64,000 nt of DNA from Roseibium alexandrii DFL-11 (GTDB lineage Bacteria; Pseudomonadota; Alphaproteobacteria; Rhizobiales; Stappiaceae): positions 1,627,228-1,691,227 of the forward strand of contig NZ_CM011002.1 in assembly GCF_000158095.2 (NCBI RefSeq). Direction: 5' to 3'. The notes below the pieces were generated by a model that was given only the letters and a program-made list of their open reading frames with translations, had not been told where the DNA came from and did not search any database. Shown piece after piece: positions 13,674 through 17,290 of the stretch. Numbering within the stretch: position 1 is the stretch's first letter; each line of letters opens with the position of its first letter. The translations under genes and the position numbers were made by a program.

Positions 13674-14384
13674 ATGAAATTTGCCGCTGGCCTCATCGCC
13701 CTTGCCGCCGCTGCTGTGCTCACTCCGGCTCACGCTGCGGACATCAACCTCACCACCGAGGAATACAAACCGTTCAACTACATGGAAGGCGACAAGATCG
13801 TCGGCTTTGGTGCTGAGCAGGTTTTTGAGATCATGAATCGCGCAGGTCTGACCTATGACGTCGAAATGGCGCAATGGTCCCGTGCAATCGGCCTAGCTGA
13901 AAAAGAAGCGGATTACTGCGTGTTTACAGCGTCGCACACAGAGGCGCGTGATCCGTTGTTCGTTTGGGTCGAACCTCTGAATGTCGACCGGACGCTGCTG
14001 ATCAAAAAAGCTGGATCTGACGTCAACGCCACAACAATCGACGAAGCCATGGCCTACTCGGTCGGCACGCAGTCTCAGGACTACACGGAAGCGTTGTTGA
14101 AAGACAAAGGTTTCCCGAAAATCGATGCCGCCAAGGATATGGAAACAACCCTCAAGAAACTGGCAGCTGGCCGGATCGACATGGTCGCTGTATCCGAAGC
14201 GTTCTTCAACAGCTTGAAGAAAGACGGCGTCGCGGTCGAAGAAGCGGTTGTCTTGTCCGAGACAGTCCTGTCGATGGCGTGTAATCCGGGCACGAATGCC
14301 GACAACGTCAAAAAGATGCAGGACGCGCTTCAGTCGATGATTGATGACGGCACCCAAGCCAAGATCCTGGCGAAATATCAGTAA
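13674..14384 (+). CDS. Orphan periplasmic solute-binding protein, family 3-like (copy 2)
   Basis: 236 aa with a textbook signal peptide (residues 1-21, cut after AHA). The mature protein starts DINLTTEEYKPFNYMEG, followed by EMAQWSRAIG and SHTEARDPLFVWVEPL, the pattern of family-3 amino-acid binding domains. It ends with DGTQAKILAKYQ, the usual terminal helix. AAAGGAA is the ribosome site. No permease or ATPase is adjacent; a third SBP is encoded convergently just beyond the terminator. Ligand and partner unknown. Confidence 0.82.
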   Translation: MKFAAGLIALAAAAVLTPAHAADINLTTEEYKPFNYMEGDKIVGFGAEQVFEIMNRAGLTYDVEMAQWSRAIGLAEKEADYCVFTASHTEARDPLFVWVEPLNVDRTLLIKKAGSDVNATTIDEAMAYSVGTQSQDYTEALLKDKGFPKIDAAKDMETTLKKLAAGRIDMVAVSEAFFNSLKKDGVAVEEAVVLSETVLSMACNPGTNADNVKKMQDALQSMIDDGTQAKILAKYQ

Positions 14385-14488: not shown

Positions 14489-15256
14489 TTAATTCAAAGA
14501 CCGGGGCCGGATATACGGGCCAATAATTCGGTCAAATTCGCCGTTGGCTCTGATGATCTGCATACCGCGGTTGAAGGCATCCACGAAATACGGGCCATGT
14601 TCCGTCTGCCGAGAAATCAACAAGTGGTAAGACCATGGATAGGTCAGCCTCTCCAAGTGACCAATCCGCTTTTGCTGATCTTCCGTCAGATGCGCCAGGG
14701 CAGCCTCGTACCCGCTGGTTTCAAGCTCAGGTACGAAATCGACCCGGCCCATGGCCAGCATCTGAAAAAGCTGCTGATTGTTCGGAACTCTCGCGACGAT
14801 GATCGATCCATCATCAATCAAGGGAGCAAACTGCTGTCCGAATGCACTGGAATCCAGCGCCCCCATGACCTTGCCGTTCAAGTCCTTCAATTCCTTCGCT
14901 TCAACAGGATTGTCTTTTGAGTAGAAAATGACCTCCCGCAAAACAAACAACGGGTCGCTGGCAAGGTAGAGGCGCTCCCGCTCCGGCGTCAGCACCCACA
15001 TGAAAGTGCCGTCCCAAGCGCCCTGCTCCACAAGCAGCATCGCCCGGTTCCAGGGAAAGAAACCGTATTCAACGTCTATGCCGACCGCTTCGAAAGCCTT
15101 CGTCACAAGTTGAGACGAAACTCCGTATCCCGGTAAGTCTTGGGACTGATAAGGTGCCCATTCGCCATTGGTGAGACGTATCTTTGTGGGTTTTTCATCC
15201 GCGACAGCGGTTGCCGCAAACAGAAAAATGAACAGCTGAACGAAAAACATCCTCAT
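14489..15256 (-). CDS. Orphan periplasmic solute-binding protein, family 3-like (copy 3)
   Basis: 255 aa from ATG 15256 (MRMFFVQLF), chosen because AAGG lies 9 bp upstream and a signal peptide follows at once (to about residue 20, ATAVADE); an open extension of 45 residues upstream is unlikely to be used. The mature part begins KIRLTNGEWAPYQS, then FFPWNRAMLL, LTPERERLYLASDP and GALDSSAFGQ, and ends FDRIIGPYI. It resembles copies 1 and 2 in motif order but is clearly diverged. No transporter genes are adjacent. Confidence 0.8.
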   Translation of the reverse strand: MRMFFVQLFIFLFAATAVADEKPTKIRLTNGEWAPYQSQDLPGYGVSSQLVTKAFEAVGIDVEYGFFPWNRAMLLVEQGAWDGTFMWVLTPERERLYLASDPLFVLREVIFYSKDNPVEAKELKDLNGKVMGALDSSAFGQQFAPLIDDGSIIVARVPNNQQLFQMLAMGRVDFVPELETSGYEAALAHLTEDQQKRIGHLERLTYPWSYHLLISRQTEHGPYFVDAFNRGMQIIRANGEFDRIIGPYIRPRSLN

Positions 15257-15396
15257 GGCGCATGACCTTACGGCAAAACTACCGGAGGATGCAATCTTGA
15301 ACGCCTGTCCGGTCTTGTCGCGACACCGGAACTTTCCGGACCAAATGTTACTAAAGTCACGGCTGCTTGCTCCTAAAACCCCAAGCAGCACGAGTG

Positions 15397-15717
15397 TCAG
15401 GCGAAACTCTCCGCCACATCATACATCACCGGTTCAAAGCTCTTGCACAAGGCATGGATCCGGCGGTTGCGCTCGCGCATCTCATCGGACCGCAGCATGG
15501 CCAGAAAGTCTTCCCGCCGCCGCCACTGTGAGTAATTGGCGATCCGTGTCTGCGCATCGTTGACGTGTAGACCGGCACCGATAAATCCGGGCTGGTGCTG
15601 TATGAACTCCCGGTAGGCGTCTTTCAGCTCTTCCAAGAGGTCCAGGCACGTCCCCGGTGTCATCTCGAAGGTTGTTATGACGGTTTGGTAGTCGCTCGCT
15701 TCAGAAATCTTTGGCAT
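15397..15717 (-). CDS. Antibiotic biosynthesis monooxygenase (ABM)-like small protein
   Basis: 106 aa from ATG 15717, which has GGAG 6 bp upstream; an in-frame ATG at 15792 directly after the regulator's stop is also possible. The segment VITTFEMTPGTCLDLLEEL, FIQHQPGFIGAGLH and NYSQWRRREDFLAML is typical of ABM ferredoxin-like dimers, which include cofactor-free quinol monooxygenases and heme-degrading proteins. The substrate cannot be told. It forms an operon with the OxyR-like regulator upstream, which suggests a role in oxidative or quinone stress. Confidence 0.75.
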   Translation of the reverse strand: MPKISEASDYQTVITTFEMTPGTCLDLLEELKDAYREFIQHQPGFIGAGLHVNDAQTRIANYSQWRRREDFLAMLRSDEMRERNRRIHALCKSFEPVMYDVAESFA

Positions 15718-15792
15718 GGCTTGCTCCAACACGTTTGAAAAGCCGGCAAGAAGCGCCCGCTTGGGCAACGGCATCGGAGAGTGTAGCAGCAT

Positions 15793-16728
15793 TCATCCCG
15801 CAGTTGGTTCCACTCCGGGAACATTCATGCTCTCAATCGCTTCATGGGACAATTCATACAGCGTTTGAAAATGATTGTGCCGGGCACTGTTGCGCCGCCA
15901 GGCAATGCATATTGTCCGGCGGGTTTTCATTTCCGCAACCTGCTTCAAGACGATATCCGGTTCTTTTCCGAACTCGGACGCAATATAGGCCGCTGGAAAC
16001 AGGCACAGACCCATGCCGATGGAAACCATTTGCCGCAGAGCATCGAGGCTCGTCCCCTCATAGTCCTGACGGAAATCAGCGCCGCTCGCCCGCGCCAGGG
16101 ACTGAACATCGTCGTGAAGCCGAAACCCTTGGCTCAGCGTCAAAAGCCTTTCGCCCTGAAGCATGTCGACCGGAATGACTTCAAGGCCCGAAAGCGGATG
16201 TGTCCGCGGCACAGCAAGCGACAACTCTTCCTGGCACAGCTTCAAAACTTGAAGACGCTCTGACCCCGCCAAGTCGGGGGATATGATGCAGTCCAAAGTG
16301 CCATCCAGGATTTGCTGCTCCAGAACCACTGGCCGGTCTTCCCGGATATAAAGCTCAAGTTCCGGGTATTTCGACTTCAGAATCGGCAAGAGGTACGGCA
16401 TGAAATATGGCCCAAATGTGGACGGCACCCCCAACCGGATCAGGCCGCCGAGATTTTCACGCCCGGCTTCTGCAGCAGTCACAAAATCGTCCAACACCTC
16501 CAACGCGTGGCGCGCCAGCGGCAACAGCCGTTCTCCAGCTGCAGTCAGCCGCACACCGGTCGTACCGCGCTCTACGAGTGTTGTATCAACACTGTCTTCC
16601 AACAATTTGAACTGGTTAGATAAAGTCGGCTGGGAAACATGGCACTTCTTCGCTGCTTTGCCAAAATGCCCTTCCTCTGCCAGAGCAATAAAATACTCCA
16701 GCTGCCGCGCCGACGGTCGATAACCCAT
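15793..16728 (-). CDS. OxyR-subfamily LysR regulator lacking both redox cysteines
   Basis: 311 aa. Residues 5-64 are the winged helix-turn-helix (AAKKCHVSQPTLSNQFKLLE). The effector domain aligns closely with E. coli OxyR: GERLLTLSQGFRLHDDVQSL corresponds to the segment with the peroxide-sensing cysteines, followed by TSLDALRQMVSIGMGLCLFPA. At the place of Cys199 there is Arg203, and at the place of Cys208 there is Ala212, so the usual disulfide cannot form. Other cysteines (C29, C147, C165 and two near the C-terminus) lie elsewhere. It is divergent from two small genes, with an OxyR-type operator between them, and upstream of the ABM gene in an operon. Confidence 0.85.
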   Translation of the reverse strand: MGYRPSARQLEYFIALAEEGHFGKAAKKCHVSQPTLSNQFKLLEDSVDTTLVERGTTGVRLTAAGERLLPLARHALEVLDDFVTAAEAGRENLGGLIRLGVPSTFGPYFMPYLLPILKSKYPELELYIREDRPVVLEQQILDGTLDCIISPDLAGSERLQVLKLCQEELSLAVPRTHPLSGLEVIPVDMLQGERLLTLSQGFRLHDDVQSLARASGADFRQDYEGTSLDALRQMVSIGMGLCLFPAAYIASEFGKEPDIVLKQVAEMKTRRTICIAWRRNSARHNHFQTLYELSHEAIESMNVPGVEPTAG

Positions 16729-16754
16729 GGCCGCCTTTCCTCCTGAATACTCTT

Positions 16755-16791
16755 ATAGAGATATTCTATCGGTTTTATCGAAACAATGTAT
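16755..16791. promoter_or_regulatory. OxyR-type operator (four ATAG/CTAT elements)
   Basis: The sequence reads ATAG-N7-CTAT-N7-ATCG-N7-GTAT. The E. coli OxyR consensus is ATAG-N7-CTAT-N7-ATAG-N7-CTAT, so all four elements are present at exact spacing, the first two perfect and the last two with one mismatch each. It lies 27 bp upstream of the OxyR-like gene and about 65 bp upstream of the divergent small gene, a normal place for autoregulation and divergent control. Confidence 0.75.
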
Positions 16792-16857
16792 TTCCGCTAT
16801 TTCGATCTACTCCCCATATCGGAGGTGCAACGATGTTTAAAAAGAGGAGCCCAAGAG

Positions 16858-17040
16858 ATGTACGCACGTCTGAAATCCCTTCAAAGCCAGCACGGCACCT
16901 TAGACAACCTGATCCAGCGGGAAGAACAGCACCCTTATCCAGACGTGGAGCACATCCGATCTCTCAAGAAATTCAAGCTGCGATTGCGCGATGAAATTCA
17001 GCGCGTGGAACGCACACTCCGCCCCGCCCAAACTGCGTGA
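16858..17040 (+). CDS. DUF465 (YdcH-like) small helical protein
   Basis: 60 aa from ATG 16858, which has GAGGAG 8 bp upstream; the longer frame from 16786 would start inside the operator. The sequence LDNLIQREEQHPYPDVEHIRSLKKFKLRLRDEIQRV is a typical DUF465/YdcH helical hairpin: a charged helix, a Pro-containing turn, and the K-K-x-K-L-x-L-x-D-E-I signature. Function of the family is unknown. Transcribed away from the OxyR-like regulator, together with the next gene, so both are probable members of its regulon. Confidence 0.8.
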   Translation: MYARLKSLQSQHGTLDNLIQREEQHPYPDVEHIRSLKKFKLRLRDEIQRVERTLRPAQTA

Positions 17041-17077
17041 CCCGCGGACCTACCTGCCAATACAGAGGAGCCCTAAC

Positions 17078-17290
17078 ATGACCCTTTTCTGGCCTTATTA
17101 CGGAATTGGCGCTTTGCCGTCCGGTTCGAACTCTAACCGCGCCCGCCGCGCCCGCCTGCGGGATCTTGAAGCCCGCATGGAAACCTTCCTGGTCGAGAAA
17201 GAGAACAAACAGGAAGTCTGCACCCGCGTGCTTGGCAACGTGAAGGAGTGCAAGACCCGTCTGCGCGGCGAACTGGCCCATCTTAGCTAG
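17078..17290 (+). CDS. Small hypothetical protein with helical C-terminus
   Basis: 70 aa from ATG 17078, with GAGGAG 9 bp upstream, the same ribosome site as the preceding gene. The N-terminus MTLFWPYYGIGALPSG is hydrophobic and aromatic; the rest is a charged helix (RRARLRDLEARMETFLVEK) with two Cys. No family recognised. It probably forms an operon with the DUF465 gene 37 bp upstream under the OxyR-type operator. Confidence 0.6.
   Translation: MTLFWPYYGIGALPSGSNSNRARRARLRDLEARMETFLVEKENKQEVCTRVLGNVKECKTRLRGELAHLS

Follow-up and report, generated by a model that had tools for sequence, protein, structure and literature searches.

The window analysed here, a stretch of 64,000 nucleotides from Roseibium alexandrii DFL-11 (contig NZ_CM011002.1), contains a gene for a LysR-type regulator and, divergent to it across an intergenic stretch of 129 bp, a gene for a small protein of the DUF465 (YdcH) family (Table 1). 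The regulator has 311 amino acids, with HTH_1 and LysR_substrate domains, and a two-box operator stands between it and the divergent gene, as is general for regulators of the LysR type. The start of the DUF465 gene was chosen by alignment with orthologues, and its Pfam match (48 bits) was scored on a longer open reading frame beginning at 16786. The small protein encoded after DUF465 was likewise queried as a longer open reading frame (16991-17290), for which no Pfam match was found. Downstream of the regulator, beside the ABM-domain gene, two genes for family-3 periplasmic solute-binding proteins face each other (13674-14384 on the plus strand and 14489-15391 on the minus strand).

Table 1. 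Features of the regulator locus, in positions of the window
Feature	Position	Strand	Remarks
ABM-domain protein, downstream of the regulator	15397..15792	-	PF03992, 34.8 bits; start probably further in
OxyR-related LysR-type regulator without peroxidatic and resolving cysteines (R203, A212)	15793..16728	-	assigned by domains and alignment
Operator tetrads	16755..16791		ATAG 16755-16758, N7, CTAT 16766-16769, N7, ATCG 16777-16780, N7, GTAT 16788-16791
Regulator-proximal operator half, probable recognition site	16755..16769	.	ATAG-N7-CTAT, centre 16762; GATAG-N7-CTAT conserved in relatives
Target-proximal operator half, probable activation site	16777..16791	.	ATCG-N7-GTAT; conserved in relatives
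Putative promoter of the divergent gene	16792..16820	+	-35 TTTCCG 16792-16797, 17 bp, -10 CATATC 16815-16820
60-aa DUF465 (YdcH-family) protein, conserved divergent partner	16858..17040	+	PF04325
70-aa small protein after DUF465	17078..17290	+	relatives in 20 of the best 80 named loci (of at least 590 confirmed stretches)

By sequence as well as by fold, the best PDB matches of the regulator are OxyR proteins, and the structures of BenM, CbnR and CcmR are also found among its fold matches. BenM/CatM and CbnR are ligand-responsive LysR proteins with a divergent target, a two-box operator and a ligand cleft between the regulatory subdomains; the sequence of the regulator, in contrast to theirs, groups with OxyR. 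The top NCBIfam model is OxyR, at 200.7 bits against a model cut-off of 329, and the katG-linked OxyR of the same genome also stays under this cut-off (249.7 bits).

The initial annotation had reported that Arg203 and Ala212 replace the two redox cysteines of OxyR, and OxyR alignments bear this out. A MAFFT alignment that includes the genome's own OxyR, together with an E. coli reference identical to the NC_000913 gene, puts R203 and A212 at Cys199 and Cys208 of E. coli OxyR (GFRLHDDVQSLA versus GHCLRDQAMGFC in this stretch), and a phmmer alignment of the regulator to C. glutamicum OxyR (6g1b) arrives at an identical register. The arginine occupies the position of the sensing cysteine, which is also that of the one-cysteine (DrOxyR-type) OxyR, and the alanine that of the resolving cysteine. 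The cysteines present in the regulator are Cys29, Cys147, Cys165, Cys242 and Cys274. According to PMC7038661, C199, T129, A147, P99 and T100 make up the H2O2-binding environment of OxyR, and a paper on the Deinococcus radiodurans protein DrOxyR (PMC2225504) ties T238 to the disulfide. At P99, T100, T129, A147 and T238 the regulator has S103, T104, P133, P151 and C242, so that T100 alone is kept.

The closest relatives among the matches kept, L064 to L066 (Labrenzia or unclassified), show 95% identity, and nearer records may be missing from this set. Between the regulator and a 95%-identical relative, 70 of the differing codons are synonymous and 15 are not; the corresponding numbers for the DUF465 gene are 18 and four. 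Most codon differences in both genes are thus synonymous, as expected for maintained genes.

The operator and the putative promoter

The four-element spacing of canonical OxyR sites, claimed for the divergent promoter in the initial annotation, is present at exactly the positions given in Table 1, where 14 of 16 bases fit the OxyR four-tetrad consensus. The E. coli oxyR-oxyS locus, which served as a positive control, likewise has 14/16 at its best site. When the 129-bp intergenic stretch was shuffled 2000 times with dinucleotides preserved, no shuffle reached 14 and one reached 13; the second-best match within the window has 11/16. In the genome of 5.46 Mb the operator, with two mismatches, is the sole place within three mismatches of the pattern, and a stricter pattern derived from relatives also occurs a single time. 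A backwards control pattern gave six matches per strand at three mismatches in the same genome, so that a lone three-mismatch match would be unremarkable; what gives the operator its weight is that it has two mismatches, stands between divergent genes and is conserved. The match at 16755-16791 is beyond chance. Two T-N11-A boxes 22 bp apart are a layout general to LysR-type regulators too, and the site is therefore OxyR-like, not OxyR-exclusive.

The putative -35 element would abut the operator. By eye, the -10-like CCATATC and TATTTCnnCTAT recur in close relatives. The centre of the regulator-side box lies about 65 bp upstream of the inferred start site, which is the typical geometry of LysR activators. 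An extra CTAT (16797-16800), 5 bp past the four-tetrad operator, was also seen by eye to recur in close relatives, and is perhaps a second activation sub-site.

Relatives of the regulator and their neighbouring genes

At E values of 1e-60 or better, matches to the regulator were found in 39 of 87 genomes of its family and in 20 of 297 genomes of an order-wide sample, its own genome being included in both counts. Scanning named genomes gave at least 590 confirmed stretches, the top 80 being retained and referred to below as the best 80 named loci; this set overlaps with that of the 48 unnamed loci, L028 being identical to L142 and L025 to L137. Families named among the relatives include the Stappiaceae, Rhizobiaceae, Phyllobacteriaceae, Xanthobacteraceae, Devosiaceae and Kiloniellaceae. 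Judged from these matches, the regulator is a member of a widespread alphaproteobacterial group and no isolated oddity.

Cysteine stands at position 199 in one of the best 80 named loci and in none of the 48 unnamed loci, and at position 208 in 25 of the 80 and 12 of the 48. The single named relative with Cys199 is L095 (Phyllobacteriaceae bacterium SP17), which has Ala at 208 and falls inside the Cys-less branch. For the canonical set, alphaproteobacterial OxyR matches were chosen by similarity to the genome's own OxyR; the 25 fetched, of 30 matches listed, all have Cys199, and 24 of them have Cys208 as well. Further residues were counted in 102 Cys-less rows, a few of which are the same gene twice, comprising 77 rows of a subclade A and 25 of a subclade B, the assignment being confirmed by the tree for rows included in it and made by similarity for the others. 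T129 is replaced by Pro in 98 of the 102 rows, and A244 by Tyr in 101; A147 is kept in four and T238 in seven, and D229 is found in all. The position of T100 holds Thr in 88 rows and Ser in 14, and P99, where the regulator of the window has Ser, is retained in 91. Since T100 and P99 are largely kept, something of the old H2O2 site remains. By sequence, the group as a whole appears to be without peroxide sensing by way of the 199/208 pair. A counterpart of Cys208 without Cys199 occurs in 22 of the 25 subclade-B rows, and this lone cysteine looks like a relic of the pair.

In a quick tree the Cys-less rows (45, of which 35 belong to the best 80 named loci) group on a single, fully supported branch. 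They and 28 canonical rows split from nine LysR paralogues of the genome at a support of 99, and Cys-less and canonical rows split from five LysR paralogues at 94, with outgroups that have long branches and leave out near families such as CynR. Among LysR proteins, the place of the regulator is on the OxyR branch. In the quick tree the Cys-less branch arises within canonical OxyR, next to E. coli OxyR (84), but an AU test did not reject canonical OxyR as one clade (p 0.62), and the tree constrained in this way was 5.2 log units better than the free tree. We therefore dropped the claim that the tree proves a loss of the cysteines; a single loss and an ancestor that never had them both stand.

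The operator is conserved among relatives. In subclade A, the 7-7-7 spacing with at least 12/16 bases occurs in 64 of the 67 loci that belong to the best 80 named loci, and with at least 13/16 in 54 of them; twelve alternative spacings reach at least 12/16 in 0 to 25 of the 67 and at least 13/16 in at most 12. Read towards the regulator, the consensus of the relatives is AT.cATTGTtt.aAT.....tgATAG.....atCTAT, in which AT.cATTGTtt.aAT is the target-proximal half. Among the 13 named loci of subclade B, five have at least 12/16 with this spacing and eight have a perfect single ATAG-N7-CTAT box. The best sites at L093 (10/16) and L120 (8/16) are no better than shuffles.

A divergent DUF465 gene was recognized by a position rule in 64 of the best 80 named loci, with a profile built from 52 of the same loci in which it was counted; by subclade, the numbers are 63/67 in A and 1/13 in B. 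The initial annotation had overlooked this conserved divergent gene. Regarding the exceptions in subclade A, L124 has a longer DUF465 protein just outside the position rule; at L120 (Mesorhizobium qingshengii) a transposase-like gene (L120:4524-5636), seen by eye, stands between the regulator and DUF465, and no four-tetrad site is left; at L121 and L129 the DUF465 neighbour was not found. The genome has four DUF465 matches; a further two of these, separated by about 400 bp, form a divergent pair (G000:C1:4475119-4475788). In subclade B, inspection by eye showed regulator genes (L130, L133, L134, L137, L139 and L143) divergent to genes resembling those of NhaA sodium/proton antiporters or universal stress proteins, and such neighbours were noticed in this subclade only.

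The ABM gene was found at 16 of the best 80 named loci, a count that includes a few contigs ending nearby (for example, L068). Fourteen of the 16 belong to Labrenzia, Roseibium or Stappia and the other two (L065 and L073) are loosely named records; in six, the ABM gene is found some 1.3 to 2.6 kb past the regulator. By these counts, conservation of ABM as a partner does not extend beyond close relatives.

A second, Cys-bearing OxyR, which the initial annotation had proposed to look for, is present in the genome (L002, with GHC-N8-C) and is divergent from katG. Among 54 genomes with a Cys-less gene, 49 have a match to this OxyR at 1e-60 or better (44/44 for subclade A and 5/10 for subclade B), matches being counted by E value and not by cysteines, and subclades being assigned by identity to the window protein; four of the 49 matches carry one stop codon inside the matched stretch. 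In the 260 bp upstream of the genome's own oxyR, facing katG, the best four-tetrad match is 9/16. This intergenic region (L002:1226-1485) contains a diverged site, of the TGATAAG type and not GATAG-N7-CTAT, so the two paralogues may differ in operator preference. Peroxide-defence targets are not predicted for the regulator, because its single site in the genome lies beside DUF465 and katG is divergent from the other OxyR.

Target and signal of the regulator

The regulator shares with canonical OxyR (that of E. coli and the genome's own L002) its fold and its branch in the LysR tree, and also the form of the sensing-loop motif, the operator of four tetrads and the divergent arrangement. In contrast, it is without Cys199 and Cys208, has Pro, Pro and Cys at T129, A147 and T238, and its one predicted site adjoins DUF465 and not peroxide-defence genes. 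PMC2225504 indicates that DrOxyR also departs from the two-cysteine scheme and is also without T238; DrOxyR, however, keeps the sensing C210 without its partner, whereas the regulator has no sensing cysteine and most of subclade B (22/25), unlike DrOxyR, keeps only the partner.

The reading that we favour, with some confidence, is that the gene encodes a dedicated local regulator of the OxyR branch, which would act on itself and on DUF465 and would not sense peroxide via Cys199/Cys208. It draws on the group-wide absence of Cys199, the changes at neighbouring H2O2-site residues, the conserved operator and DUF465 gene, the separate Cys-bearing OxyR and the uniqueness of the operator in the genome. 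From sequence we infer binding, activation, autoregulation and a ligand as follows. A predicted tetramer would occupy 16755-16791, with one dimer on the regulator-proximal box, where it would bring about autoregulation, and the other on the box abutting the -35 element of the divergent promoter. The signal would be a small molecule bound in the cleft that takes up H2O2 in OxyR, the simplest reading in view of the clade-specific conserved residues; on its binding, the target-side dimer would shift and bring RNA polymerase to the DUF465 gene, with which one further small gene would be expressed in this genus. The initial annotation had supposed that the protein keeps the DNA site of OxyR and answers to another signal, and this general idea gains from the group-wide absence of 199/208 sensing, the changed H2O2-site residues and the conserved OxyR-type operator.

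Two of the specific forms given to that idea found no support. One of them, in which the signal would be a product or substrate of the ABM protein from the regulator's operon, has in its favour that the ABM gene is adjacent and on the same strand in the window. With ABM at 16 of the best 80 named loci, mostly those of Labrenzia, Roseibium and Stappia, and with the operator and DUF465 conserved far beyond these, it is so improbable that we rejected it. Competition of the regulator with the true OxyR for its sites is scarcely more credible and was rejected too: the recognition-helix stretch is like that of E. coli OxyR (CHVSQPTLS in both) and the operator matches the E. coli oxyR-oxyS site in having 14/16, but the genome's own OxyR has CAISQPALS in this stretch, the genome contains a single such site within three mismatches, and the best match before its own oxyR, facing katG (the sole OxyR target covered), is 9/16.

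The main rival, although unlikely in our estimation, is that the regulator still senses through thiols, by way of Cys29 of the DNA-binding domain (E. coli position 25) and/or Cys147 and Cys165 of the regulatory domain. Cys29 and Cys147 occur in all 77 subclade-A rows, and this invariance leaves room for thiol chemistry; Cys165 occurs in 57 of the 77, and Cys147 and Cys165 lie on successive predicted strands. In canonical OxyR, Cys147 is found in two of 26 rows and Cys165 in none; 19 of the 26, however, also have Cys29. The counterpart of Cys29 is not known to be the sensor in canonical OxyR. Moreover, 20 of the 77 subclade-A rows are without Cys165, and subclade B has neither Cys147 nor Cys165 (0/25). 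A parallel is offered by the mycobacterial protein OxyS, an OxyR-like LysR protein that, according to PMC3260234, senses H2O2 through Cys25 in its DNA-binding domain, and Cys29 may be the counterpart of this residue. The same source describes OxyS as a repressor of katG, whereas the conserved neighbour of the regulator is DUF465. A bolder form of this rival, which we think still less probable, is that an OxyR-type scaffold was rebuilt as another sensor of thiols or thiol ligands (Cys147 and Cys165, with Cys29, substituting for the 199/208 pair) dedicated to one DUF465/YdcH gene; if true, this would be the first regulatory handle on the DUF465/YdcH family.

Next in our ranking, and about as improbable as the rebuilt sensor, comes a regulator independent of any signal, either locked in the active state or acting as a plain repressor, in which case the level of DUF465 would be fixed by the amount of the regulator itself. 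PMC7038661 reports constitutive activity of E. coli OxyR for substitutions at C208 and A147. The regulator has other residues at both positions (A212 and P151), so it could be locked on. In those E. coli mutants, however, C199 is intact, and here it is gone. The regulator-proximal box lies just upstream of the regulator's own start, as autorepression would have it, but the regulatory domain is conserved, and the clade-specific P133, D229 and Y248 suggest a specific ligand or conformational role.

One observation that we count against the favoured reading, of a regulator that does not sense peroxide via Cys199/Cys208, concerns E. coli ydcH, which PMC4207228 lists, from one array study, as H2O2-induced and OxyR-regulated, and which thereby raises a possible oxidative link. 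The 300 bp upstream of E. coli ydcH gave no four-tetrad site (best 9/16), and we keep OxyR control of this gene as an ancestral link only as a weak lead. An expression table of a Sinorhizobium meliloti study (PMC8343143) includes another DUF465 gene, SMc03999, but sheds no light on the present case. In searches of open-licence papers, read as the openings of abstracts, neither a Cys-less OxyR group in the Alphaproteobacteria nor a LysR-DUF465 pair was described.

Among the 120 matches listed, 45 rows carry a name, and in 27 of these it is "peroxide-inducible activator" or the like. Because the rows read are without the sensing cysteine of OxyR, the name "hydrogen peroxide-inducible activator" given by databases to the regulator's group probably misleads, and recognizing the group would allow names to be corrected in several families of the Alphaproteobacteria. 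The group would also be a natural experiment in how one LysR scaffold varies in signal with its operator kept, and it would link the uncharacterized DUF465/YdcH proteins to a testable regulator.
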